Virus record (IMG/VR): IMGVR_UViG_3300027573_000052
Span: 1 to 45,701 of that record
Length of the DNA stretch: 45,701 nt
Reading direction: 5' to 3' (one strand)
DNA from: a virus
The position numbers were made by a program, and so were the translations under genes. How positions within the stretch are numbered: the first letter of the stretch is position 1; every line of letters starts with the position of its first letter. The notes under the pieces were generated by a model. The model made no database searches and was not told the origin of the DNA. It worked only from the letters and a program-made list of their open reading frames with translations. Of the stretch, positions 1,838 through 42,969 are shown one piece after another.

Positions 1838-3925
1838 ATGGATAGAAAACAAGCTGCTCAAATCCTACGTGACGAGATGAATCGTCATGGCCTGCAGGAT
1901 TGGAGCGTAAGACTGAATCAGAATGCTGATTCACGATTCCTTGGTATGTGTTCATACAAGGATAAGTGCATCATCCTCTCCGCACATCACATTGACATAC
2001 ATCCTGACCCGGATGTAATCAATACCATCCATCACGAGATTGCACACGCGCTCACTCCGGGACATGGGCATGATTACGTGTGGGCTGATAAGGCACGTGA
2101 AGTTGGATGCGATAACACCCTTCCATGTAGTAACTTGAGCCTCAGTCCAGAGATAATAGATGCCATCAGGGGTGGCGCGGATGTTGAGGTGAGTTTTGAT
2201 GAGCAGGTAATCCGCACTCCACGATACACTGTCACTAGATTACAGGACAAGTGTCCAGTATGTGGCAAGGTCGCTGTAGTGGCATCTGAGCGCATCCTTG
2301 AATCTAAGGGTGACACAGAACCAGATACGAAGTTCATCAAGCTGGAGTGTGGGCACACCACTATTCGCTACATCCCGAAGGGTACGCCATATCATCTGTT
2401 TCAAACAGGTGGTGACCCTAACTGCACACACGAATGGGACAAGAACAATTGTGTCCTATGCAATAGGAAGCGTCCATACAAGTTCCAGCTCGATGGTATG
2501 GCGTTCCTTGAGGCAGGTCTAGCTGTTAACAAGGGTGCAGCAGTATTCGATGAGATGGGTCTGGGCAAGACAATTCAGGCTGGTGCAGTAGTTTTCTTCA
2601 ACCAATCCATTTGTTCACCAACTCTGTGGATTGTCAAGAGTGGCTTGAAGTATCAGTTTGCATCCTTCATCATTAACTGGATGCCAGGTCACTTTCCACA
2701 AATCATTAACTCTTCGAAGGATATGTTGTGGCCGGGGATGAAGCATTACATCATCGGTTACGACATGTTGGTATCGAAGACTCGCACTCTGAAGTCTGGT
2801 AAGACTGTTACTTCAGGGTTCGATATCACCAAGTTCGATGCTATTGGCATCAAGTGTGTTGTGTTGGATGAATGTCAGCAGATTAAGAACGTGGATTCAT
2901 CTAGAACTCAGATGGTCCGCAAGGTAGTTCGAGACAAGAAAGTCATCGCACTCTCTGGCACACCGTGGAATAACAGAGGGAGTGAACTCTTTCCAGTTCT
3001 CAATATGCTGGCGCCAATGAAGTTCGCGTCACCCGAGCGATTCAAGCGCGGGTGGGTGAGCTACTACTATCAGGGCGCGTTCATCAAGGAAGGTGGTATC
3101 AAGCGTATTCCAGCATTCAAGGAATACACGAAGGAAATCATCATCCGACGTGAGCGTACTGAGGTTCTCCCTGAACTGCCATTAGTCAATCGAACGAAGC
3201 TCAACGTAATCATGGATGAGGGCCAAGAGGCAGTCTATGATGCGGAAGTTGAGAAGTTCGTTGAGTGGTATGAGAATGAGATGGGCGAAATCTCTGGCAT
3301 GGCTATCATTGCAGCCATGCAGAAGATGCGTCATCTCGTTGCTCTCGCTAAGGTTCCTGCTACTCTGGAGCATGTTGCAGAATTTGTCGAGAACACTGAT
3401 AGGAAGCTCGTAGTGTTCGCTCATCACAAGGATGTACAGGCTATCCTGTATGATGAGTTGAAGACAGCTCATTCAGCAGATATACCAGTCATCAAACTGG
3501 ATGCTGAGATGAATGGCTGGCAGCGCAATGAAGCTCAGGAACTCTTCAATAAGAGTGAGAGAGTTATCATGGTTGCCTCTCAACTCGCGGCTGGAGAAGG
3601 ACTCAATCTTCAGACGTGCTCGGATTGCATCATGCACGAGAGGCAGTGGAATCCGGGTAAAGAAGAACAGTGTGAAGGTCGATTCATTCGCATCGGCTCA
3701 CAGGCTACATCAGTGAATGCTATCTACGCGCACCTCGAAGGCATCACTGCTATTGACGCGCAGCTCGATGTATTAGTTGAGAGGAAGCGTATTCAATTCC
3801 ATGAGGCTATGAGCAAAGGTGAGACGCCGAAGTGGAATGAAGATAGCATGATGCGTGACCTCGCTGCTAGCATCGTGAACTCACACAATGCTAAGAAGAA
3901 TCGTAAAGTTCTTGCTGCTAAGTAG
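1838..3925 (+). CDS. SprT-like metalloprotease fused to SNF2-family helicase/translocase
   Basis: A 695-residue protein with an AAGGA ribosome-binding site 8 bases before ATG. Residues about 1-110 resemble SprT/Spartan peptidases: HEIAH at 66-70 with downstream His at 76 and 78. Cys pairs follow (CPVC 139-142, CGH 171-173, C196, C205 and C208), suggesting zinc ribbons. From about 215 comes an SNF2 helicase core: Walker A region DEMGLGKT (238-245), DECQ box (344-347), SGTP (373-376) and a helicase C-terminal part with Q611 and R615/R618 before IGS. SNF2 proteins translocate on DNA and remodel protein-DNA complexes, while SprT proteases degrade proteins on DNA. The fusion suggests ATP-driven clearance of DNA-bound host proteins; that joint role is inferred. 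Confidence 0.93.
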   Translation: MDRKQAAQILRDEMNRHGLQDWSVRLNQNADSRFLGMCSYKDKCIILSAHHIDIHPDPDVINTIHHEIAHALTPGHGHDYVWADKAREVGCDNTLPCSNLSLSPEIIDAIRGGADVEVSFDEQVIRTPRYTVTRLQDKCPVCGKVAVVASERILESKGDTEPDTKFIKLECGHTTIRYIPKGTPYHLFQTGGDPNCTHEWDKNNCVLCNRKRPYKFQLDGMAFLEAGLAVNKGAAVFDEMGLGKTIQAGAVVFFNQSICSPTLWIVKSGLKYQFASFIINWMPGHFPQIINSSKDMLWPGMKHYIIGYDMLVSKTRTLKSGKTVTSGFDITKFDAIGIKCVVLDECQQIKNVDSSRTQMVRKVVRDKKVIALSGTPWNNRGSELFPVLNMLAPMKFASPERFKRGWVSYYYQGAFIKEGGIKRIPAFKEYTKEIIIRRERTEVLPELPLVNRTKLNVIMDEGQEAVYDAEVEKFVEWYENEMGEISGMAIIAAMQKMRHLVALAKVPATLEHVAEFVENTDRKLVVFAHHKDVQAILYDELKTAHSADIPVIKLDAEMNGWQRNEAQELFNKSERVIMVASQLAAGEGLNLQTCSDCIMHERQWNPGKEEQCEGRFIRIGSQATSVNAIYAHLEGITAIDAQLDVLVERKRIQFHEAMSKGETPKWNEDSMMRDLAASIVNSHNAKKNRKVLAAK

Positions 3926-14881: not shown

Positions 14882-15165
14882 TTATACCGAGACCCACACA
14901 CAATGACTACCTTCTACCCTATGTTGAGGAGAGAGCGGTCCCAACAGGAGATCAGAGTAGACATAGTGCGTGGGTCAAATGGTATCTTGATGCACCCACA
15001 TGGAAGTGTCCTAAGTGCGGGTGCATCATTTCAGGTCGTTCTGCTAACTGTGTGTTCTGTAGACTTCAGCATCGAATCATAACACCTAGACCAGAAGGAA
15101 TGAAGTGTATGACCGATGCTGAAATCGACGAGTGGATAACTAAAAATTCTCATCCTCAGTCGTAA
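14878..15165 (+). CDS. Last early-arm gene: zinc-ribbon protein, convergent overlap
   Basis: A 95-residue protein with a GTG start overlapping the previous TGA (GTGA). CPKCGC (about residue 44) and CVFC (about 58) form a zinc ribbon, followed by a short helical tail. Its last 26 bases overlap, on the opposite strand, the end of the 2254-residue late gene. No terminator separates the two arms here, so readthrough in either direction would make antisense RNA. Confidence 0.65.
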   Translation: MIIPRPTHNDYLLPYVEERAVPTGDQSRHSAWVKWYLDAPTWKCPKCGCIISGRSANCVFCRLQHRIITPRPEGMKCMTDAEIDEWITKNSHPQS

Positions 15166-18100
15166 CTACATCCTTCAAACCACCACCTGTAGCCAACCAG
15201 TCATTCTCTGGAGCCACCAGCTTACCAACACTCTCACCACGTCCGTAGGTCTGAGTACCCATACCAAGCATGATGGGAGCCATCCACGGTAGCATCTTTG
15301 GATTCTCATAGTATAGTCCAATGAGATCCTGAATTACCAGTGGTACAAACAACTGAGCTACACGATCCTTAACGTGGAATGGATTGTACTCTGACTGACT
15401 AGCTAGATCGTAAGCAAACTTGGTGACGGGATTGAACTTATTACTCAGGAACCGTTCGATGTTACCCTTCTGAGTAGGTGCGTTGAATCCCTCGCCAAAC
15501 TCTCTCCAATCATTACTTGCGGATGATGTGGTGCCTCCCTGAATCATACGCGCCATTGCTACAAGGAACTGCTGGAAGCCACCTCCAGGGTCCATGCGCG
15601 TGTCGCCAATCTTAGCCTTACCCCAATCAGCAGAAGTCATATTCTCCAAGTTGACCTCTACTTCATCTCCACCGCCACCCTTAATCAGAGCAAGTGCTGC
15701 CATCCATGCTGCTCCAGTAGCTAGAGCAGACTGAAGGTATTGCATCCGCACTTGTGGACTAGCCATAACGTACGTACTGGGATTCAGCATTCGCACTCGA
15801 CTCGCAATGAGTCCGGGTGAGAAGAATAGATGCTGCAATGCACCAGCTGCACTCTCTAGACTCACCTCAGTCTGTCTGAATGGTAGCACATGAGTCTTCA
15901 GTGGACCCTGACCAGTAGCAGTATTCACGAAGTCAGCAAGTTCCTTAGCTAGAACTTTATTCCTGTATCCGTTGAGGTCTTTTGCTTCCTGCGCAGTATA
16001 TGCCTGCTTGAAGAAACCTGGTCTAACGAAACCAGTATTCCTAGCCTCAATGTGCATCTTAGCAGACTGATCCATCAGATACTCGAACCTATTCACCTTC
16101 AAATGATTCAAGAAGGTGATATACGCTCTATTCGATGCACGAATTGGCTTACCAGCAGTATTCTTCCAAATTCTGGAACCGATACCAGTTCCAATACCCT
16201 GTTCAATCCATCTAGATGCAGTAGCCTGAGCACGCTGACCCATCGGTGCATTAGATGAAGCTGATTCAAACATCTTAAGTCCAGCTTCAGTAGCAATAGA
16301 TGGCATCACCTTACCAGTCGTTCGATTCCTTCGAGCTAACATGACTGGTTTGCTGCGCAAATCTGCATCAATAGTATTGAATATCTGCTGACTAAATCCA
16401 GCCTTGAGCATAGGCACTACAGCTCTCCAGAACTGTGGAGTATGAATCTGTCCAAGTCCCTGTCTCCATGGAGCGGATAGGTCTGCTGTAGTAGTTAGAC
16501 CCGCAGGTACAGCTAATGCTTCTCTAACCCAGTGTACAGGCTTCTGAGTAGGCTGACCTGGAACTACGGGAGGAGGAGGTGGCATCTGACCGCCCATACC
16601 CCATCCAGTAGCCTGCTTTACTCCAGCATATGCCTGTTTAAATGGCATACCTCCAAACAAGGCACCAGTAGTTGACCCGCTCTTAGCGTCAGTCCAACCC
16701 TTCTCAAAGTCCTGGAAGAACTTGTTAACCCAATTACGGATCTTACGTGGTGAATCATTCTCACCAAATGTCTCGTGTGTTCTTCCTCCACTTGGCGTCA
16801 GCACATCCACTACAATGAATGGATCTGTACTGGATTCACTATTCCATGTTGAGTCGGCCAAATGTGTAGCCTGCTCGCCTGAAATAGGTCCATGTACTTC
16901 AGCCATGTGATCACGGAAGCGAATGATACCAGCTTCCTGTGCTTCAGCGAGTCTAATTCCGAGCGCGTGTGTCTGCTCGTCATGATACTGAGGTTTCTTA
17001 GGATCAAATCCCAATCTAGTACCATCAGGTAGTATAAATCTAGTTTTTTCATAAGTATTTACAACAGGTAATGCTTTACTAAGCACCTCTATGGCGCGGG
17101 GAGTAGCCTTCTTTCCATCTCGTTCACCATCGCTAGGAACTCCCTCCTGTCCTTCGGGTTCTCTAATCCATTCGAGAGCTCTCTGTCTTGAGAGAGTATC
17201 GACCGTAGTGTCTGGTCTCCCCCTCTGCTCTGTATAGCTCTGTAGGAGTTTTCGAATCCCTGGAGCATAGCTTCCGTCTGGTCCGGTGATTGCTGCATAG
17301 ATCTCCTCTACAATATCTGCACGTCTTCCGGCAGTATAGGTACTATCTGTTTCCAATAGTGCCCAAGTAAACTGAGCACCTTCTGGACGTACACGATTGT
17401 GATTGAACTCATGGAGAATAACATGAGCAATCTTCTCTGCTGCAACACCAGGACTAGGAGCATCCTGAATTAATCCCATCAGGTTAATCAGAATCTTATA
17501 TTCTTTCGCATCTCTCCATCCTGATTTTGATGGATTAGGAATATTCAAACCACCAGATTTAGAATCAGCTTGCATGAATCCAAATGCAACAGTATCACCA
17601 GCTGCATTTCCTTGAGCATGACTAAAATGATTACGTAGTTCATCAAGCATCTTCCCCATAATGCTCGCAACTCTCATCACATGGGGACTATTGTTAAATT
17701 CAGCCTTCTCTCTCGGAGTCATTCGATCACCAGAGTCATGGAGTACATGCTGATGATGTGGACTAGCTGGCTGCAAATCATCAAATAGTTTCTGAATTTC
17801 ACCAGTCTTCTGGTCTCGACCAGGTTTAGTAATATTCTGATCAATCCAAAGATAGATCTTATTTTTAAGATCATCATTCATATCCTCTCGATTTAGACCG
17901 AACGGATATCCGGTAGTTCCCTCTGGAACGAGGGAATTAATATCAAGTACAATCTTTTCAGGAACATTGGGCAGTGGTGTACGCCCATATGAATGACCAT
18001 ATTCCAGTGCAAACAATCCATTATTCAATACAACTACTGAAGCTTCTGCACGTTCCTTATCGTCCAGATCATAATGAACTTTAATATTTGCAGTCGGCAA

Positions 18101-21100
18101 GTTAATAGTATTTACATAATTCGGAGTGGGTAGACTCTTATGTTCAGTTATATGAGGGTTATTCTTGGGATTACTTACTGTACCTTTATCCAAGAATTCA
18201 GGAATATCATCATCCCAATCAACAGAACTCTGAGCCCAGAATGACTGGACATTGTCCATACCTGCTGAGTTTTCAATAGTTGTCTTCCACAAACCCTTAG
18301 CCTTGTCCAGAGAAGCAGTTTGTGGAAAATATACTGTTACTTCAAATCCGGTCCTTGCTTTCCATGTTATCTCAGTTCTATGAAGAGGAACACCAACAGC
18401 CTGATCCTTCATCTGAGTTGGATCGCCTTCAAATTCATAGGCTACCAGTTTACCATTTTCATTGACGATAGATTCTACATTGACATGGAGTCCACCAAGC
18501 ATAGGAGCAGCCTTGGCGAATCCAAAGCCACCAGATGCATTAGCTTCGTCTCTCTTACCTGATTTACCCACGTCAGTGAAAATAGTGTAAAGCTGGTCAG
18601 CCGTGAGACCACGACCGAAGTCCTTTACAACAATAGCCTTACCATACACCTTACCACCGTGACTTGGATCTCTTACACCAGGAATCTCAGCATACTCGGA
18701 GAACACAATACGAATGGGATTCTTATTTCCACTAATCTTACGTTCATCCGCTGCGTTCTGACCTAGTTCCTTGATTGAAGTAGCAATCGCATCACGATTG
18801 TATAGAGAGGTACCCAACATATCCAATACAGCGGGGTCAGCTCCGCCCATTGCAATGTTATGCATACCTGTCTTTGGATTGACTCCAGGTACTCGCATCT
18901 CTGCAATGTTCTCAGCTGTGTACTGAGTAACGAATGCGCGCTCATCATCATTTTCAAACTGAATCTCTCTAGCAGCCTCTCGGATGCGAATCTCCTGCTC
19001 AAGTTTAATAGTAGTTAGCTTACTCTCAGCGAATGCAACTCGTCTCTTAGCCACACCTGACATGTTAGGAATAGTCTTAACACGTTCCAGATGTGCTCTA
19101 GCCTTATCAACATCTTCGACCATTAGTTCTTCCATTCGAACTAGGTCTTCATCAGTGGCATCTCTCAATGCCTTTTCAAAGCTCTGTCCCACACCAGATC
19201 CAATGCGCGGATCGAATGCTTTAATGCTAGCAGATCCAGCGTCAGGTGCGACACGAGACTCAAAGTAATCAACTAGACCGAGAACTACATTACGCCAGGT
19301 ATCACCCTTCTTTAACACCATCCGTGACATGGAAGAAGTAATATTACGATATTCTGAATCAGGTGCTCCTCGTGCATCGAGTTCCTTAACAGCTGCCATC
19401 ATTCGAATAGCACTAGGATGCCTCAGTGCAGTCTCAGGATTGATAGCTGCCTCACCAGCAGTATCCATAGAGGGAGGATTCTCCTGAACTCGCAGTCTAG
19501 CGATCTCAGCCTCTGCTCTACCTCTCCATGTTTCACCCTTCCTCAGACGTGCGCGTGGGGAGTCGGCTGTGAGAGCCCTGTATGCCTTATCAGGCTGCTT
19601 CTGTTTATCGAATGCATCTACCTGTCTCTGTAGATCATCAGCCTTCGGACCCTCTACAGATACAGATGGACCCTGAACAACTTCCTTCTCAAATCTACTG
19701 CTACCATCACTCGTCTTACCTACCTCAACGTATCCACTCCTATTGAGATTCCCCAACATCTGAGGAGTAAGCTGACCCTTCCTAATGATAACAGTCTGTT
19801 TAGCTGGTGTAGTTGGAGTAATATTCTTCTCTACAACAGTCTGATCTTCTAATTCAGGATAATGAAGTTTCTCATCTCCAATAGTTCCAGTTACTTCATC
19901 TACTGCTGCCTGACCTTCTACGAGATCTCCTCCATACATAGCTCTCAGCTGATCTAGATGGAACTGCTTAACATTTTCAATTTCCTGATCACTCATTTCC
20001 TGACCAGGCTGAAGTCCCATCAACCTCTCAAATTCAGTTTGCTGAGCTTCAGCAGGTAGTATTTCACCATCTGGTCTCGCTGCTTCAGGAAGTTGTGCAG
20101 GAGTTTGTGGTAGGAGTGACTCTGCATGACCTGGAGTAATTGGACCCCATTCATCTTCTTCAACTGCAGGAGTCTGCTGGATATTATCAATTCCGTTCTG
20201 TACACGCAGTCCACTTACATCATTAGTTGGAGGATATACAACATCAGGCCCGAATGGAACCTGAGGAACTAGATCAGGTCCAACACCAGCGGCAGCCTGA
20301 CCTTCAGCAGTTCTCTCACCTACAGGATCAGGCAGATTTCTCCACATTTCCGCATGTGCTTGTGGATTATCAGGAACATATTCTTCCTGATTAATATTAG
20401 GCTGATAATTCATCTCAGGTTGAATAGTATTCAGCCTTTGTGCAATTACATTAGCTAGACTCTTAGTGAGAGCATCCTGACGTGGATGCATTTGGACTAG
20501 CTGAATCATTCCAGCTAGTTCCATTGGATCTGTTGAGCTACTTACAAGCTGCTCGAATCTAGCAACGTTAGCTTCAGTTGAAATATTAGGATCTGAGTCA
20601 GACAGAATACTACTGAGTACCCCATTCGCACCTGACATGGGAGTATTGATGACTGTTTCTCCTGCTGGATCTGGTACTACTGTACCTTCAATATCCGGCT
20701 GATTAGGAGGAGCAGGCTGAATAGTCTCACCACCCTCATCAGGCGAATTGACACGCCTGAATACAGTCTTACCTCCAGGTCGCTGACCTGCCTGTATGAA
20801 TCCATTATCCCGCATTGCTTTAATAAAATCATTAGTTACATCAGCTTCAGGTACCTCAAATGTGGTACCTACAGCTTCAGTATCTTCATCATATACTTCA
20901 TCAGTTTCATTAGTTCCAGTGTATCTATCAGGTGTGGGCTTAGCATGGTTACCCATAACCATAGGCATACCACCACCCATGATACCGCCAGAAATCATAC
21001 CTGATGCGGCAGCTTGACCCGCACCCTGATTCCATGGCTTACCAGTAGCTAGATTAGTTGCAACCTTTTCCTGATAAGATTGTGGAGCTTCTTCAAGAAC

Positions 21101-21904
21101 ACCCTCATTAATAGCAGTACCAATTAATGGAAGAATACGTCGAGATCCCTTTCGTGTAGGATCTGCTAGCATCTGCTCCACATCAGGCAGACCTAACCTA
21201 TTAGCTAACTTACCACCAGCTCCACTAATACCAGCAGTTAGAGCAGCTGATCCCGCTGCATATGGTACGTCACCAAGGGTAATATCACTACCCTTTTCAT
21301 CACGTATATCAGCAGCCTGTTGACCAGCTGTGGTAAGAAACTCACCAAGCATACCCGCACGCAGCGCACCAAGAGTTGGAGCCACACCTAATGCAGCACG
21401 ACCAACTCCCATACCTGCAGCCATAGCAGGAAGGGATTCCTCAATAGACAATATGGAAGTACCTGGATTACGCCATTTGGAGTTAAAGGTACCAACGAAA
21501 TCCTTACCTGCCTCCTCCTGTCTAGCTTGCTTCAGTTCTGGAGATTCAAATTCTGAAATATAATCCAACGTTTTCTTTGCATCATATCCAGTCAAGTCAT
21601 GCAACATTCCCGTTGCATCTGGAATTTCATATCCAGCGAGTTCCGCTATCTTACGCTGCGGTGTTGACGCAAGATCAAGCAATCCCATACCCATCTGACC
21701 TAGCTGAGTAGGAATCTTGAGTGCAGTTACGCCAATATCCCTCAATGACGGGAGTGCGTATCCACTACCGAAACTAGTATCTTCAGGCTCCTGAGGTGCG
21801 TCATCATAGAACTGAAGACTGGATGGACCCTCACTCTGACCTTGACTCTGAGAATCTGGAGTCAAATCATCATAGTACTGGAGGCTAGATGGTCTCTGAG
21901 GCAT
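15140..21904 (-). CDS. 2254-aa polyvalent internal virion protein with GHKL ATPase and HExxH motif
   Basis: The largest gene. The N-terminus repeats SSLQ-(Y/F)-YDD and is followed by a hydrophobic Gly/Ala region (about 50-320). Two KG(E/D)TWR segments, with W793 and W870, mark a small internal duplication. Residues about 1010-1200 carry GHKL ATPase boxes: E1046/N1050/D1053 in KELGQNAADE (N box), D1095-F-G-R-G (G1) and G1125-G-F-G-F-A-K (G2). A possible transducer-like region follows. HEFNH at 1498-1502 is a zinc-peptidase motif. A 'LPDGTRL' segment and a hydrophobic C-terminal region resemble modules of large polyvalent phage proteins. Such proteins are typically ejected with the DNA. It is last in the late block and coupled by TAATG. 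Confidence 0.88.
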   Translation of the reverse strand: MPQRPSSLQYYDDLTPDSQSQGQSEGPSSLQFYDDAPQEPEDTSFGSGYALPSLRDIGVTALKIPTQLGQMGMGLLDLASTPQRKIAELAGYEIPDATGMLHDLTGYDAKKTLDYISEFESPELKQARQEEAGKDFVGTFNSKWRNPGTSILSIEESLPAMAAGMGVGRAALGVAPTLGALRAGMLGEFLTTAGQQAADIRDEKGSDITLGDVPYAAGSAALTAGISGAGGKLANRLGLPDVEQMLADPTRKGSRRILPLIGTAINEGVLEEAPQSYQEKVATNLATGKPWNQGAGQAAASGMISGGIMGGGMPMVMGNHAKPTPDRYTGTNETDEVYDEDTEAVGTTFEVPEADVTNDFIKAMRDNGFIQAGQRPGGKTVFRRVNSPDEGGETIQPAPPNQPDIEGTVVPDPAGETVINTPMSGANGVLSSILSDSDPNISTEANVARFEQLVSSSTDPMELAGMIQLVQMHPRQDALTKSLANVIAQRLNTIQPEMNYQPNINQEEYVPDNPQAHAEMWRNLPDPVGERTAEGQAAAGVGPDLVPQVPFGPDVVYPPTNDVSGLRVQNGIDNIQQTPAVEEDEWGPITPGHAESLLPQTPAQLPEAARPDGEILPAEAQQTEFERLMGLQPGQEMSDQEIENVKQFHLDQLRAMYGGDLVEGQAAVDEVTGTIGDEKLHYPELEDQTVVEKNITPTTPAKQTVIIRKGQLTPQMLGNLNRSGYVEVGKTSDGSSRFEKEVVQGPSVSVEGPKADDLQRQVDAFDKQKQPDKAYRALTADSPRARLRKGETWRGRAEAEIARLRVQENPPSMDTAGEAAINPETALRHPSAIRMMAAVKELDARGAPDSEYRNITSSMSRMVLKKGDTWRNVVLGLVDYFESRVAPDAGSASIKAFDPRIGSGVGQSFEKALRDATDEDLVRMEELMVEDVDKARAHLERVKTIPNMSGVAKRRVAFAESKLTTIKLEQEIRIREAAREIQFENDDERAFVTQYTAENIAEMRVPGVNPKTGMHNIAMGGADPAVLDMLGTSLYNRDAIATSIKELGQNAADERKISGNKNPIRIVFSEYAEIPGVRDPSHGGKVYGKAIVVKDFGRGLTADQLYTIFTDVGKSGKRDEANASGGFGFAKAAPMLGGLHVNVESIVNENGKLVAYEFEGDPTQMKDQAVGVPLHRTEITWKARTGFEVTVYFPQTASLDKAKGLWKTTIENSAGMDNVQSFWAQSSVDWDDDIPEFLDKGTVSNPKNNPHITEHKSLPTPNYVNTINLPTANIKVHYDLDDKERAEASVVVLNNGLFALEYGHSYGRTPLPNVPEKIVLDINSLVPEGTTGYPFGLNREDMNDDLKNKIYLWIDQNITKPGRDQKTGEIQKLFDDLQPASPHHQHVLHDSGDRMTPREKAEFNNSPHVMRVASIMGKMLDELRNHFSHAQGNAAGDTVAFGFMQADSKSGGLNIPNPSKSGWRDAKEYKILINLMGLIQDAPSPGVAAEKIAHVILHEFNHNRVRPEGAQFTWALLETDSTYTAGRRADIVEEIYAAITGPDGSYAPGIRKLLQSYTEQRGRPDTTVDTLSRQRALEWIREPEGQEGVPSDGERDGKKATPRAIEVLSKALPVVNTYEKTRFILPDGTRLGFDPKKPQYHDEQTHALGIRLAEAQEAGIIRFRDHMAEVHGPISGEQATHLADSTWNSESSTDPFIVVDVLTPSGGRTHETFGENDSPRKIRNWVNKFFQDFEKGWTDAKSGSTTGALFGGMPFKQAYAGVKQATGWGMGGQMPPPPPVVPGQPTQKPVHWVREALAVPAGLTTTADLSAPWRQGLGQIHTPQFWRAVVPMLKAGFSQQIFNTIDADLRSKPVMLARRNRTTGKVMPSIATEAGLKMFESASSNAPMGQRAQATASRWIEQGIGTGIGSRIWKNTAGKPIRASNRAYITFLNHLKVNRFEYLMDQSAKMHIEARNTGFVRPGFFKQAYTAQEAKDLNGYRNKVLAKELADFVNTATGQGPLKTHVLPFRQTEVSLESAAGALQHLFFSPGLIASRVRMLNPSTYVMASPQVRMQYLQSALATGAAWMAALALIKGGGGDEVEVNLENMTSADWGKAKIGDTRMDPGGGFQQFLVAMARMIQGGTTSSASNDWREFGEGFNAPTQKGNIERFLSNKFNPVTKFAYDLASQSEYNPFHVKDRVAQLFVPLVIQDLIGLYYENPKMLPWMAPIMLGMGTQTYGRGESVGKLVAPENDWLATGGGLKDVVTTEDENF

Positions 21905-23391
21905 TATCTACCTACCTTAAAACCTGATCTCTTAGCAGCTTCAATCTCAGAAGGGGTATTCAAAATGGTAGCTCTACGACCATCAGGACCAGTTACCATA
22001 ATCCGCTTACCGGATTTAACCTCTGCACTCTGCTGAATTTGTGCAGCACTAGGCTGTCTAGGTGCTGGAGGTCTAACTCCACCTTCACCAGTATCTCCTG
22101 CAGCAGTCTGATCATTTGGATCAGGTACTCTGTTAGAACCACCTATTGGAGCAGGTCTACTACTGGAAACAGGTGGCTTGTAATCAGGATCAATTGCACT
22201 CCTATATTCATCATATGCCTTTGCTTCAGCTTCAGAATGAGCACCAACACCAGAACCAAACCAACCACCTTCTCCTGGAGTAGGTCTAGGCTTCCACGTA
22301 AGTCCGCCCTTACCATCTCCCTTCATATACTTAGAAGCTTCACTACTATGAGCAGTGTAAGCCTCTTCCATTCTATCCTGCTTCTGCCTTCTAGTTTCTA
22401 GTGTATTAGTAGTTGCTCCTCTAGAACCAGGTGTGCGTACTGGACCTGTCGTACCCGGAATACGTCTAATAGGTGCATCTGGATCTCGGGGATTGACTAC
22501 ACCCGCACCCGTATCATCATTTACTACTTCAGCACCTGCCGCTACAGTGCGACCCATTGCATCAGCACCAGTCTGACGTGCGGCTTCTACTCGCCATCCA
22601 CCCTCAAGATTAATCTTCTCTTCCTGAGTCAAGTTACCAGATGAACCGAGTCTACGAGAACTCTGACCATCTGGACTATAGGCCATGACATCTGGACCGA
22701 CAACCTTCACAGTCCACTTGTTAGCTCTCGCATTCTCTGCATTTGCACGAATCAATGCAACTTCATTTCTTGCAGTAGCTGCTCTTTCAGTGGCAGCAGT
22801 TCTCTCTGCAGCTGCATGTGCCGTTGCTGCATTAGCCATCAATGTGCGTTCATTGATGTTCTGACGATTCTCCAATTCAGCTGCCTTATAGTATGGATCA
22901 GCGCGTGTCTTCCACTCTTCAACATCACGCATATAAGGTGCGTACATTACTGATTCAGCAGTTTTGATTGGATCATTAGCCTTAACTGACATACCCGCGG
23001 CTACTAGAGTACGTCCCCAGCCTGGAGCTTCTCTAGTTGGAGCCTCATTCAAGAGAGTATTAAGTCTATCTCTTGATGTATAATCAGGCGTATAGGCTTC
23101 ATTCATCTGCTTGAGGTAATCCTGTAGAGTTCTACCCGTATTAGGGTCTACTCTAGGTGCCTCAATAGTGGGAGCTTGAATTGGACTAGGTTCCTGAAGT
23201 GGCTGACCATCTGGTCCCAAGATAGCATTACTATCCTGTTGCGCAGCTACTGATTCCAAACCAGGACCGGGAGTATATGGAGATGAAGGATTACTATCCT
23301 CATTCATATAGTTCATCCCAGCACCAGGAGTAAGCTGGTCATACCCACCCATGAGATTCTGCTGGCGGAGTCTACCGATATCGTATGCCAT
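21904..23391 (-). CDS. Putative internal virion protein
   Basis: A 495-residue protein. I start it at ATG 23391 (MAYDIGRL) rather than an upstream TTG, which sits on the GGAGG itself. It is low in complexity at both ends (Pro, Gly, Asn, Gln). Residues about 175-250 form a long Ala-rich, charged helix (AHAAAERTAATERAATARNE), consistent with a coiled coil. Size, position and composition fit an ejection protein partner of the giant protein it overlaps. No enzyme motif was seen. Confidence 0.7.
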   Translation of the reverse strand: MAYDIGRLRQQNLMGGYDQLTPGAGMNYMNEDSNPSSPYTPGPGLESVAAQQDSNAILGPDGQPLQEPSPIQAPTIEAPRVDPNTGRTLQDYLKQMNEAYTPDYTSRDRLNTLLNEAPTREAPGWGRTLVAAGMSVKANDPIKTAESVMYAPYMRDVEEWKTRADPYYKAAELENRQNINERTLMANAATAHAAAERTAATERAATARNEVALIRANAENARANKWTVKVVGPDVMAYSPDGQSSRRLGSSGNLTQEEKINLEGGWRVEAARQTGADAMGRTVAAGAEVVNDDTGAGVVNPRDPDAPIRRIPGTTGPVRTPGSRGATTNTLETRRQKQDRMEEAYTAHSSEASKYMKGDGKGGLTWKPRPTPGEGGWFGSGVGAHSEAEAKAYDEYRSAIDPDYKPPVSSSRPAPIGGSNRVPDPNDQTAAGDTGEGGVRPPAPRQPSAAQIQQSAEVKSGKRIMVTGPDGRRATILNTPSEIEAAKRSGFKVGR

Positions 23392-23393
23392 GA

Positions 23394-24482
23394 TTAACCC
23401 CAACCTCCATCGGGACCGGGACCAGCACCTTGACTACGGGCATCATAAGTAGGATTAGTAGTTGCAACAGGCTTCTTCTTAGTAGTTAGTTTATCAACAA
23501 TTGGATTAGCGATACGACTCGCCGTGTCAATCCAATCCTTAGTTCTATCAACAGTCTGCTCATACTTACCGGGCTGCCCACCTACTGCAACCTCATTCTT
23601 AATCTGATTCTGACCGAATGTACCACTCTGACCGATAGCTGAGAGTACCTGATCTCCATACAACTGAGCCATACCTGGAGTGGTACCATAGAGAGATGTC
23701 ATACCACTGAGAGCACGCAACTGATCTGCTCTACTAGCTGCAGCAGACTGCATTGCATTAGATGCACTACCTGCTGCCGCGGCATTACGCGCACCTGCGT
23801 TAGACTGCTTGGCCTGATTATTGATACCAGCATTGTATTTCTGTACATCGAGATCACCAGCTAGACGCTGTTTCTCGATATCAGTCATACCTGTCAATCC
23901 TGCCAACTTACCAGTATTCCTAGATTCAATCATACCAGCTTCAACATTCTGCATGGCATCAGCACCAAGCTGACCCTGCTCTCTAGCCATGCGTGCCTGT
24001 AGAGCCATAGCATTAGGGGAATATCCACCCTGAAGTGAACGCTGTCTAGCTACTTCACGTTCAGCGTTAGCATATGCGGCTCGAACTGGAGATGTTCCTC
24101 TTGCTCTCAAATTAGCTACATCAGCAGCAGAATATCCGCCAGTATTACTGAAGTCCTGAAATCCAGCATAGGAATTAAAGGGATCATTGTACTTAATATT
24201 CTCTGGAGTCCATGACTCAGCTCCATAACTATAATCACCCCCACCACCCCCACCTCCACCTGGACCTACAGTACCGGCACCACTAGCGATGCCTCTATAC
24301 TGATTCATAATGTCAGTATAGTCACCATAATTGGCTTCAGAACCACGCGCATAGTTCTCAGCCATTAGACCCATAATAGGATCAATTTGGCCCTCATACC
24401 TCTGCTGTTGATAACCCATCTGGTTTTGCGCACGTCCCTTAGGATCGTTACCAGATGATGTATCGAACGGATTATATGCCAT
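23394..24482 (-). CDS. Gly/Ala/Gln-rich virion protein
   Basis: A 362-residue protein with a poly-Gly stretch near residue 80, an Ala/Gln/Arg-rich helical middle (about 125-260) and a Gly/Pro-rich end. Proteins of this type precede the large internal virion proteins in many podovirus genomes, and an ejection or inner-tail role is inferred from that. No catalytic motif is visible. The next gene begins three bases after its stop. Confidence 0.65.
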   Translation of the reverse strand: MAYNPFDTSSGNDPKGRAQNQMGYQQQRYEGQIDPIMGLMAENYARGSEANYGDYTDIMNQYRGIASGAGTVGPGGGGGGGGDYSYGAESWTPENIKYNDPFNSYAGFQDFSNTGGYSAADVANLRARGTSPVRAAYANAEREVARQRSLQGGYSPNAMALQARMAREQGQLGADAMQNVEAGMIESRNTGKLAGLTGMTDIEKQRLAGDLDVQKYNAGINNQAKQSNAGARNAAAAGSASNAMQSAAASRADQLRALSGMTSLYGTTPGMAQLYGDQVLSAIGQSGTFGQNQIKNEVAVGGQPGKYEQTVDRTKDWIDTASRIANPIVDKLTTKKKPVATTNPTYDARSQGAGPGPDGGWG

Positions 24483-37517: not shown

Positions 37518-37694
37518 CTACCTGAGGTTTACAGGAATGTTAATGATTCCAAACATGGAAAGGATGTACAGAATGGAGAACAGAATTACAACAGCCCTAA
37601 TGAGCATGATGATGGGAGGACTCATCGGAATATATGTCTCAACTAGATAGAGACAGAATCCAAGGACGACGAGAACAACGATCATCATTATCAT
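37518..37694 (-). CDS. 58-aa two-span membrane protein (Thivi_2564-like)
   Basis: A short ORF with ATG at 37694 overlapping the upstream stop (ATGA) and AGGGA 5 bases before it. Two hydrophobic helices (about residues 2-18 and 29-50) flank a YIPMSPPI turn, and the end has FGIINIP. This pattern matches the Thivi_2564-type small membrane proteins common in phages and bacteria. A lysis role such as holin is conceivable, since no other holin candidate was found, but is not shown. Confidence 0.7.
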   Translation of the reverse strand: MIMMIVVLVVLGFCLYLVETYIPMSPPIIMLIRAVVILFSILYILSMFGIINIPVNLR

Positions 37695-38395
37695 TTTTTC
37701 CCTGTCTTTCTTTTGTAACTAATCCACTCATCATCAGAGAATTTCTGATTAGCTTTCCTAGTAAGTTCAATATATCTCTTAGTTTCTTCTGGTGACAGCA
37801 TCTCGGAACTTATTCTGCCGGTTGTAGAGTAATATGCCGGAAATTCGTCTGCTCGATTAGCAGGCCATCTATTAGGTCTATTGAGATTCTGACCATAATG
37901 AACCATTTCATGTTCTATGGTCTTATATCTCTCATCAGGAGTCATTTGCTCCAAAATAGGATTAAAATCAATATTCCTCAGAGTCTGCCCCTCTGGTTCG
38001 ATTCCACCGAGTTGATTAGTACCAATCCAGTCACCTCTCGGACCTAATCCTCTTACACGCGCTGCCAAATCAGGATGTTCCTTCTTAGCACGTTCAAATG
38101 AAGCGCGCATATTTGGATATTCTTCAGGAATCTCAGTATTGTAAGTCTCAGGCGGAAGATATACACCCTTTGGAACTTTACCAGGCGAACCTAAAGTAAC
38201 TTCTCGAAGTTCTGTTGGATTATAATCCCAACTAGGAGACATAGGACCAGGATTTTCAGGCTTAACTTCTACATCTTCCTTAAATCCCATATCATAAGTA
38301 GGTTCAGGACGTGGAGTTCCACCCAAATTCCTGACTACCATATCAGCCAGTGCATCAAACATAGTACGTTTGGATGGACCTATTCTGTCAGGCAT
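37691..38395 (-). CDS. Putative HExxH zinc metallopeptidase
   Basis: A 234-residue protein with HEMVH at residues 162-166 (IEHEMVHYGQ), followed by ADEFPAYY, where the Glu could be the third ligand, a gluzincin-like layout. The N-terminal half is Pro-rich and looks disordered, with FDALADMVVRNLGG at the start, suggesting it may be targeted to or packaged in the virion. A role in virion maturation, entry or lysis is inferred from the late location. Confidence 0.72.
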   Translation of the reverse strand: MPDRIGPSKRTMFDALADMVVRNLGGTPRPEPTYDMGFKEDVEVKPENPGPMSPSWDYNPTELREVTLGSPGKVPKGVYLPPETYNTEIPEEYPNMRASFERAKKEHPDLAARVRGLGPRGDWIGTNQLGGIEPEGQTLRNIDFNPILEQMTPDERYKTIEHEMVHYGQNLNRPNRWPANRADEFPAYYSTTGRISSEMLSPEETKRYIELTRKANQKFSDDEWISYKRKTGKK

Positions 38396-40543: not shown

Positions 40544-41275
40544 TTACCTCGCACCTCTACGGGGTTCCATTCCATTTTCATCCATCTGTACTGGTGGCTG
40601 ACCATAAGGTGCTGCCATTCCACCAAACATCTGCTGACCATCAAACAACTGAGCAGATGGACCGATACCACGATCCATTACATCAGGTCGCCCGTAATTA
40701 CCTACAGGAAGTTCTGGAACCTGATTAATTGGTTGCTGACCATGTAACTGGCCCATACCTTGACCCACACGCGCTAATTCACGTGGATCTTGTGATCCCA
40801 GATCTGGACCATCATAACCGCGCATCTGTTCTTGTGCTGCAGCCAATGAAGACTGCATAGGATTTTGCTGCTGTTGAGCAAGAGATTCCTGCTGCACAGC
40901 ATATGGAGTCTTCAGTCCACCCTGCTGAGCCTGCAGTTTCTGCTGTAATTGCTGATACTGAGGAATAGATGGTCCCAATCCTGGCTGCTGTTCCTGCTGC
41001 TGTTGTTTAGCAGCTAGTTGTTTAGCCTGAATCTGTTGTGCAGATCCACCAGCTCCAGGTATCTGACCCATAGTTGGATTAGGTCTCTGTCCAAATGCCT
41101 GTCTAGGCTTTTGCATTCTATTAGCTTGCCATGCATTAGCCACATTACTCACACCTTGAGCCATATTATTCATGGGTGACTTCTGCTGAGCGAATCCCTG
41201 TCCCATACTATTAGCTCCAGCAGATACACCAGATGCAGGAGTTCCCATCTGTTTCATCGTATCGTAGAGTCCCAT
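40544..41275 (-). CDS. Gln/Gly-rich virion-region protein
   Basis: A 243-residue protein dominated by Gln, Gly, Pro and Met, with poly-Gln tracts (about 90-150) and low complexity throughout. The first 12 residues (MGLYDTMKQMGT) look like a short helix. It lies between the glycoside-hydrolase-like gene and terminase. It is probably disordered; a scaffold or virion-internal role is possible. No family recognised. Confidence 0.65.
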   Translation of the reverse strand: MGLYDTMKQMGTPASGVSAGANSMGQGFAQQKSPMNNMAQGVSNVANAWQANRMQKPRQAFGQRPNPTMGQIPGAGGSAQQIQAKQLAAKQQQQEQQPGLGPSIPQYQQLQQKLQAQQGGLKTPYAVQQESLAQQQQNPMQSSLAAAQEQMRGYDGPDLGSQDPRELARVGQGMGQLHGQQPINQVPELPVGNYGRPDVMDRGIGPSAQLFDGQQMFGGMAAPYGQPPVQMDENGMEPRRGAR

Positions 41276-42969
41276 TATCGTAGTCTCCCTCGTACAACCT
41301 GCGCTGTGTAACCGTTAGGTTGTCCGCCTATACTACGGACAAAGTTGAAAGAAATCTCTTCGGACAGGTCGAACTGCTTCTCTTCACCTGTAGTTCCATC
41401 CCAATTTACGAATGTAAGGAAACATGCGCGCTCACATTTGGCTCGACTAGTTCCCTGATCTCCGTAGAAGATACCGAAGATCTCTCCATCATGAGATATC
41501 CTGTGATCAAATCGAAGGGTATCTTCTGCGAGCGGACTAAATACCCTGTGACCGGATTGACTAGAACCAAAGTGAAATACTCCGGGCCAGCCCATAATGT
41601 CGAGAGGAACAATCCCGTGGACTTTAGCGACTTCATAAAAGCCCGCGTATGAATCGAGTGGAGTATCAGACTTTACACCAGCACCACAGAAGTAATTGAA
41701 TCCCTGATTACACATCAATGACTGGACAGCCAACGCACACATGTGATTAGCGTCAACATCACGCCCTTCATAACAATGTGCTGGCTTGACTGATACTTCA
41801 TCTCCTGGTCCTGTAGGTTCATCCTGTATTCCGAATCTAACAGGCGGATGTCCTTCCCACGGTACTGAGAAGATGTGACGAATTCGATCATGGTCCTCAT
41901 TACCACGGAAGCCATGAATAGCATAGAAATCTCCACCACACCATTCTGCAATAGCTGGTGCAGATTCATCAGGTGGTGCAGTAGTTGTGACTATGATTGT
42001 AGAGACTTCCGCCTTGAAGTTGTCGAGTGCGTCGGAAATCTCTTCCTTACTATCTGCACCCGTTTGCCACGCTTCATTTCCACCGAACACATACGCGGCT
42101 GTACAATTCTCTCTAGCTCGGAGATGTCGTCCAAGCTCAGCGAAGAACTCCGAATGCGACCCGCCCCATAACTTGTAGTCGCCAAGGTTATAACCACCTT
42201 TCATTCCATGCTTATCTAGCAGATCACCAAGTCGGCCAAGCTGACCCCAGAAATCATCTGTATATCCTGGGCCACATTCTCTACCTGACCAGTAATCTCC
42301 TAGTGTACCAAGATTCATCCAGAAATGGATGAAAGGATATCCTGCTGATTTGGCTAGAGATACAATAGATTCGGCTCGACTGGCGTCTCGCACGAATACA
42401 CTGAATAGATCTCCTACGTGTAAACCAATAGGAAGGATTCGATTACCTGAATCATCAGTAAATCCTGCTTCATCAATGCGCAGTTGACCCTGAATGATTG
42501 ACTCACCGGGAGTAAATGAGGAGATAGGAGGATCAGCAGTAAATGTCTCGTACCCTCCGGGTACGGTTGAAGGACTATCCTCGAACATTGGCTGATCTAG
42601 ACTAACTCGACCATCTCCCCACACTTTAATGAAATAACCTGGCCTACAGACTGATTCGAATGATACCTTACTTCCATTCTCTTTAGAGTGAAGAATGAAC
42701 TTCTCCCATGCACCTACTTCCTGACGATTGAAGACAATGATTCCATCTCTGCCTTCATTTTCACAACATGCATAGAATCCATGACATGACTGGATTGAAT
42801 AATGTCCTTCATCATCTGAATCGAAGACCATGAATGATTCCCACGCACCCGCACTATCACGGGTAGCAGTCATCAATCCACTAGGTCTACCATCAATGAT
42901 CTGACCGGGAAGTCCTCCACCATCTTCTGCTGACGCGAACTTCCCGTGGTCTGATTTAAGTGTAGTCAT
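41275..42969 (-). CDS. Glycoside hydrolase (clan GH-A-like) with N-terminal fascin-type domain
   Basis: A 564-residue protein. Residues about 20-145 form a beta-trefoil/fascin-like domain (AWESFMVFDSDDEGHYSIQS, AWEKFILHSKENGSKVSFES), usually a carbohydrate-binding fold. A catalytic TIM-barrel candidate follows: NEAW with N298/E299 (acid/base) and an IQDEP strand end with E384 (nucleophile), as in clan GH-A enzymes. The C-terminal 100 residues are beta-rich. A virion glycanase or depolymerase acting on host surface sugar is inferred from the late position. It could also be an unusual lysin. Confidence 0.75.
   Translation of the reverse strand: MTTLKSDHGKFASAEDGGGLPGQIIDGRPSGLMTATRDSAGAWESFMVFDSDDEGHYSIQSCHGFYACCENEGRDGIIVFNRQEVGAWEKFILHSKENGSKVSFESVCRPGYFIKVWGDGRVSLDQPMFEDSPSTVPGGYETFTADPPISSFTPGESIIQGQLRIDEAGFTDDSGNRILPIGLHVGDLFSVFVRDASRAESIVSLAKSAGYPFIHFWMNLGTLGDYWSGRECGPGYTDDFWGQLGRLGDLLDKHGMKGGYNLGDYKLWGGSHSEFFAELGRHLRARENCTAAYVFGGNEAWQTGADSKEEISDALDNFKAEVSTIIVTTTAPPDESAPAIAEWCGGDFYAIHGFRGNEDHDRIRHIFSVPWEGHPPVRFGIQDEPTGPGDEVSVKPAHCYEGRDVDANHMCALAVQSLMCNQGFNYFCGAGVKSDTPLDSYAGFYEVAKVHGIVPLDIMGWPGVFHFGSSQSGHRVFSPLAEDTLRFDHRISHDGEIFGIFYGDQGTSRAKCERACFLTFVNWDGTTGEEKQFDLSEEISFNFVRSIGGQPNGYTAQVVRGRLR

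Follow-up and report, generated by a model that had tools for sequence, protein, structure and literature searches.

Phage polyvalent proteins, among them the DarB-like giants and the N4 virion RNA polymerase (vRNAP), were described previously, and the main text of that description names zincins (Iyer et al. 2017, PMC5512222). The N-terminal region of the N4 vRNAP functions in injection, according to the same main text. In phage JC1, the DarB-like giant gp69 is abundant in purified virions, where it was detected with 51 unique peptides (PMC9144972). RIIA, a phage GHKL protein, was reported to counter the RexAB defense (PMC11879866). The terms GHKL, Hsp90, HATPase, Bergerat and gyrase are absent from the main text of PMC5512222, and a literature search for GHKL or Hsp90 in ejection proteins found none.

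We analyzed a viral stretch of 45,701 nucleotides (IMG/VR virus record IMGVR_UViG_3300027573_000052, hereafter the window). Its giant ORF, P0001, runs on the minus strand from 21904 to 15140, and the reading frame comprises 2254 codons without an internal stop. The features of P0001 and of its operon neighbors are listed in Table 1.

Table 1. Features of P0001 and adjoining late genes, with positions in the window.
Feature	Residues (aa)	Positions	Strand	Basis or remark
P0001, giant ORF	1-2254	15140..21904	(-)	2254 aa; probable internal virion/polyvalent protein
N-terminal domain	106-338	20891..21589	(-)	PHROGs and tblastn
Bergerat (GHKL) ATPase domain	1012-1160	18425..18871	(-)	PHROG RIIA, AF2 model, TRAP1 profile
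Box I, KELGQNAADE	1045-1054	18743..18772	(-)	E1046, N1050 and D1053 invariant in 22 giants
Box II, DFGRG	1095-1099	18608..18622	(-)	D1095 and G1099 invariant in 22 giants
Box III, GGFGFAK	1125-1131	18512..18532	(-)	G1125, G1128 and K1131 invariant in 22 giants
Transducer (S5-like/Hsp90 middle-type)	1175-1375	17780..18382	(-)	AF2 residues aligned to Hsp90
NRE, transducer Arg/Glu	1338-1340	17885..17893	(-)	R1339 and E1340 invariant in 22 giants
Predicted zincin metalloprotease domain, Wss1/SPRTN-like fold	1388-1573	17186..17743	(-)	AF2 and structural search
HEFNH, putative zinc-binding/catalytic	1498-1502	17399..17413	(-)	third ligand E1508
Domain between zincin and C-terminal domain	1612-1730	16715..17071	(-)	N-terminal to the GHKL in L020 and L022, relatives with a shuffled order
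Lineage C-terminal domain	1790-2241	15182..16537	(-)	79 loci, with or without the GHKL-zincin cassette
499-aa gene, P0001 operon		21904..23403	(-)	syntenic across lineage; probable internal virion protein
362-aa gene, P0001 operon		23394..24482	(-)	syntenic across lineage; probable internal virion protein

The P0001 gene is the final gene of the late operon and faces the replication operon. It follows the 362-aa gene and the 499-aa gene, in that order, and this synteny is conserved in the lineage. The N-terminal domain (aa 106-338) matched phrog_30335 (1e-14), phrog_2206 (2.5e-8) and phrog_10089 (3.3e-7), and by PHROGs it is common to the N4-type virion RNA polymerase, DarB-like giants and other giants. 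By tblastn (matches down to 2e-11) it was found in giants annotated as 'structural' in F116/8P-type phages (8P, H66, Epa33). Pfam gave no domain match on P0001, polyvalent markers such as LPD domains included. In more distant giants that bear this cassette, Pfam recognized LPD38, GNAT and H-NS domains; LPD38 passed its cut-off in L066, which also has the H-NS DNA-binding domain, and LPD39 stayed below its cut-off in L030. Such giants have DarB-like regions as well, and the gene adjoining the giant in L025 has a transglycosylase domain, as internal virion proteins do. In P0001 and its relatives, enzymatic domains of unrelated kinds are joined in a single giant polypeptide encoded beside phage late genes. 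Since the N-terminus of P0001 resembles that of the N4 vRNAP and DarB-like giants, its gene closes the late operon, and its relatives bear LPD domains, P0001 is, by analogy, probably a phage polyvalent virion protein that is packed in the head and injected with the DNA; its link to the JC1 giant runs via the PHROG profile only. A clear transmembrane helix was not found in the hydropathy profile of P0001. When a cultured member of the lineage was sought, the major capsid protein had no match and the C-terminal domain was found only in the uncultured ctf1B273. The P0001 lineage is without a cultured representative.

In the middle of P0001, the boxes ExxxNxxD, DxGxG and GxxGxx occur in the order and spacing of GHKL ATPases. 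PHROGs RIIA profiles matched aa 1022-1134 (E 1.1e-8), and NCBIfam HSP90 (E 0.004) and sacsin (E 0.008) matched the GHKL region, both below their profile cut-offs. HATPase_c_3 (Pfam) passed its cut-off in relatives of P0001, not in P0001 itself. PADLOC and phmmer against the PDB, run with P0001 alone, gave nothing useful; a profile of the cassette against the PDB reached Hsp90/TRAP1 at 1.6e-14. An AlphaFold2 (AF2) model of aa 1005-1573, built from 22 sequences, had a pLDDT of 84.6 and a pTM of 0.76. Its first 363 residues matched the Hsp90 N-terminal and middle (N+M) domains with Z 20.7 and rmsd 3.6 over 282 residues; Topo VI-B, GyrB and MORC2 ranked closely after Hsp90. The transducer R/E pair of P0001 aligns with HtpG NVSRE and RIIA SRE. 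The best BFVD match covered the whole cassette in a fragment, 1404 residues long, of a different viral protein (E 3.2e-18, TMq 0.62) and was followed by RIIAs. A tblastn search of annotated phages with the GHKL region gave 862 records, and RIIA was the usual annotation among the matches listed. The model indicates that the middle of P0001 holds an Hsp90-branch GHKL module composed of a Bergerat domain and a transducer, a predicted ATPase. An earlier note on this DNA had read a GHKL domain into the 2254-aa ORF from the three boxes, with an HExxH behind them. All of these motifs lie at the positions given there and are not a chance occurrence; the profiles, the residue invariance in 22 giants and the AF2 model agree with that reading, and the structure prediction and fold search proposed there recovered the Bergerat fold.

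The HExxH lies in a second domain, for which AF2 gave a pLDDT of 90.2 when it was modeled alone. The best structural match was Wss1 (Z 8.5, rmsd 2.5, 102 residues aligned), followed by YbeY, BepA and SPRTN; Foldseek alone gave a weak match (E 0.17). With a Foldseek E of this size and a Z of 8.5, the predicted zincin assignment is modest. HExxH and a third ligand, H or E, were present in 31 of 31 zincin sequences, the third ligand being located 5 residues past HExxH in most and past an insert in some. The model suggests, more weakly, that the HExxH of P0001 belongs to a zincin protease, which would be proteolytic. In the domain order, the zincin occupies the position of the Hsp90 C-terminal dimerization domain. 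The zincin model is also faintly like the C-terminal domain of HtpG (Z about 4), a weak match that was not relied on.

A scan of IMG/VR with an alignment of P0001 and RIIA yielded 80 loci of two kinds. About 50 of them encode free-standing RIIA-like proteins, roughly 620-940 aa long, in which the GHKL lies close to the N-terminus and no zincin follows. Another 24 distinct loci encode giants (1061-4095 aa, some of them truncated where the contig ends) with the GHKL in the middle, and all 24 carry an HExxH 464-554 residues past the GHKL start; L078 and L088, both among these, nearly duplicate each other. Residue invariance was assessed in an alignment of 22 giants with 16-42% identity to P0001. 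Invariant positions were E1046, N1050, D1053, D1095, G1099, K1117, G1125, G1128 and K1131 in the GHKL, Y1333, P1334, R1339 and E1340 in the transducer, and H1498, E1499 and H1502 in the zincin. The invariance of the active-site residues argues that both enzymes are active. In the giants the zincin is an obligatory partner of the GHKL, which makes functional coupling likely. One scan of genome contigs confirmed no relative, with P0001 alone used for the confirmation, so that cellular or prophage relatives may still exist.

We built a tree from 58 GHKL+transducer sequences, including 30 giants; its cellular sampling consists of three long-branch E. coli proteins. The RIIAs formed a single clade (95/94) with all 30 giants outside, and HtpG was the sister of RIIA (98/83), closer to RIIA than the giants are. 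Neither a single clade of giants (p-AU 0.49) nor one uniting giants and RIIA to the exclusion of the three E. coli proteins (p-AU 0.37) was rejected by the AU test. In this phylogeny the P0001 GHKL is placed as Hsp90-like and outside RIIA. P0001 was considered as an RIIA, its best phage matches being RIIA, and this identity was rejected: the RIIA clade excludes the giants, and the GHKL is internal, starting at aa 1005 of 2254 with a zincin behind it, not part of a free-standing protein of 620-940 aa. A captured RIIA counter-defense gene, fused into the giant and still acting on RexAB-like systems, would fit those best matches in annotated phages, the 'AMGG...SLY' start common to P0001 and RIIA, and the action of RIIA against RexAB. 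We regard this as very improbable: the giants lie outside the RIIA clade and HtpG is nearer to RIIA, the deeper order not being resolved by the AU tests, and no RIIB profile match was found among the larger window proteins scanned. Because the RIIA clade excludes P0001-type GHKLs, the known function of RIIA is not simply transferable to them; its activity against RexAB (PMC11879866) makes a counter-defense role plausible and does not prove it.

A search with the C-terminal domain (aa 1790-2241) gave 79 syntenic loci of the same lineage, six of them cut and 73 evaluable. The GHKL was present in 15 of the 73, with the zincin each time. It was missing from the other 58, and from 56 of these a recognizable zincin was missing too. 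The remaining two members had the zincin alone (L100, 8296-8853; L105, 8341-8898); a degenerate GHKL was looked for in both and no trace was found. The C-terminal-domain tree requires at least nine cassette gains or losses, at least seven of them on well-supported branches. The sister phages L095 and L096 are 84-86% identical to the window in DNA polymerase and 78% in the C-terminal domain, vs. 26% in GHKL+transducer and 23-24% in the zincin, and their GHKL is placed in a different tree clade from that of the window. Pfam on seven cassette-less relatives named no alternative effector. The GHKL-zincin cassette is optional, swapped cargo rather than ejection machinery. Such exchange of modules, including that of aa 1612-1730 across the GHKL in L020 and L022, fits effectors under host selection.

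That the cassette is optional and is gained, lost and swapped also argues against an essential role in ejection. An Hsp90-like ATPase that refolds the giant, or moves the giant and the DNA through the envelope, would suit the Hsp90-like N+M fold and the location of the gene in an ejection-type operon, but with the cassette absent from most syntenic relatives and repeatedly gained or lost we consider such a machine decidedly unlikely. The reading given in the earlier note is supported in part. It had placed the GHKL in an internal virion protein, which can now be specified as an Hsp90-branch GHKL in a protein that, by analogy, is probably ejected. Its proposal of a chaperone or DNA clamp was right about the GHKL and incomplete otherwise, having missed the zincin partner and the optional, exchanged nature of the cassette. 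Polyvalent virion proteins, the kind to which P0001 probably belongs, were already described, and phage GHKLs are known as RIIA.

Two further observations were made among the relatives. L128 and L157 are two different C-terminal-domain giants near the ends of one 62-kb contig (IMGVR_UViG_3300036851_000016), either a chimeric assembly or two copies. In L016 the DNA polymerase gene is in two ORFs (14932-15801 and 16027-17136, minus strand) that correspond to consecutive parts of the window polymerase, and L018 has an identical split polymerase.

We propose, with about even confidence, that P0001 is an injected polyvalent protein whose cassette, an Hsp90-like clamp and a zincin, acts as an effector that disables host proteins, possibly defense proteins. 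About 340 aa at the N-terminus and about 450 aa at the C-terminus would place P0001 in the virion and carry it into the cell, and the middle would be a two-enzyme effector cassette in which a GHKL ATPase and its transducer are joined to a zincin. Upon ATP binding the GHKL would close as a dimeric clamp on a host target, either a protein or a protein on the incoming DNA, and the zincin, located where the Hsp90 C-terminal domain would be, would cut the clamped target. The cleavage may disable host defense or remodel proteins of the host during the first minutes, ahead of phage gene expression. In this proposal we infer the virion location, the ATP-driven clamp, the proteolysis and the host target. 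In clamp GHKLs the N-terminus is usually free, and the internal position of the GHKL in P0001 counts against the clamp. A broader idea, which we put forward tentatively and on the doubtful side, is a new class of ATP-dependent protease with an Hsp90-type clamp and a zincin as its C-terminal domain, virion-borne in many unrelated phages and cutting host defense or DNA-bound proteins before phage gene expression.

The main rivals of the effector proposal are self-processing and a DNA-clamp protease. In the former, the giant would be its own substrate, cleaved by the zincin within the capsid or once ejected, with the GHKL clamp regulating or powering this maturation. Self-processing was proposed for polyvalent-protein zincins, with processed DdrB as the example in the main text of PMC5512222; cleavage would free the internal GHKL, and the zincin does occur without GHKL in L100 and L105. 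However, the 58 of 73 relatives without GHKL, 56 of them also without zincin, indicate that maturation in this lineage requires neither domain, and simple autocleavage needs no ATPase; we judge this alternative unlikely. It is quite unlikely, in our estimate, that the GHKL holds the incoming phage DNA and the zincin strips bound or crosslinked host proteins from it. Wss1 as the closest fold of the zincin, with SPRTN also among the matches, MORC2 and Topo VI-B as strong structural matches of the GHKL, and the H-NS DNA-binding domain of the L066 giant all point in that direction, but Hsp90 scores slightly above the DNA-clamp GHKLs, a DNA-binding part was not identified in P0001, and a fold likeness does not imply a substrate.

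Other window proteins were noted as well. A 695-aa protein (1838-3925, plus strand) has an N-terminal SprT-like HEIAH metalloprotease region and an SNF2-type helicase (PHROG DNA helicase match, 7e-76), making it the second protein of this genome to pair a protease with an ATPase. A 234-aa late-region protein (37691-38395, minus strand) with an HEMVH motif is possibly a zincin and has no PHROG match. A 564-aa late-region protein (41275-42969, minus strand), also without a PHROG match, appeared by eye to be beta-trefoil and glycoside-hydrolase-like.

If the effector proposal is true, an energy-consuming clamp-protease joins the enzymes injected by phages, and GHKL ATPases can serve as pre-expression counter-defense. 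It would also bear on the function of RIIA-like GHKL proteins, a question of long standing. The cassette swaps between sister phages mark domains facing host selection and supply natural allele pairs.

Compared with known systems, P0001 shares the GHKL+transducer fold of MORC and topoisomerase VI-B, but a DNA-cleaving or DNA-binding partner domain was not recognized in it. Its zincin resembles Wss1/SPRTN in HExxH and third ligand, with Wss1 closest by structure; the Z scores are only 8.5 and 6.0 with no sequence relation detected, and the P0001 zincin is fused to a GHKL. Like RIIA of T4, N4 and FelixO1, P0001 has a GHKL and a transducer with the SRE-type motif and the shared N-terminal signature, whereas RIIA is free-standing with its GHKL at the start, usually lies beside RIIB, has no zincin and forms its own clade. 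The likeness to Hsp90 (HtpG, TRAP1) extends over the N and middle domains (profile 1.6e-14, Z 20.7) and includes the middle-domain arginine, but in P0001 a predicted zincin replaces the C-terminal dimerization domain and the whole is embedded in a predicted virion protein. Polyvalent proteins such as the DarB-like giants and the N4 vRNAP are, like P0001, giant multidomain products of late operons with zincins and the same N-terminal domain; what distinguishes P0001 is its candidate effector, an Hsp90-branch GHKL fused to a zincin.
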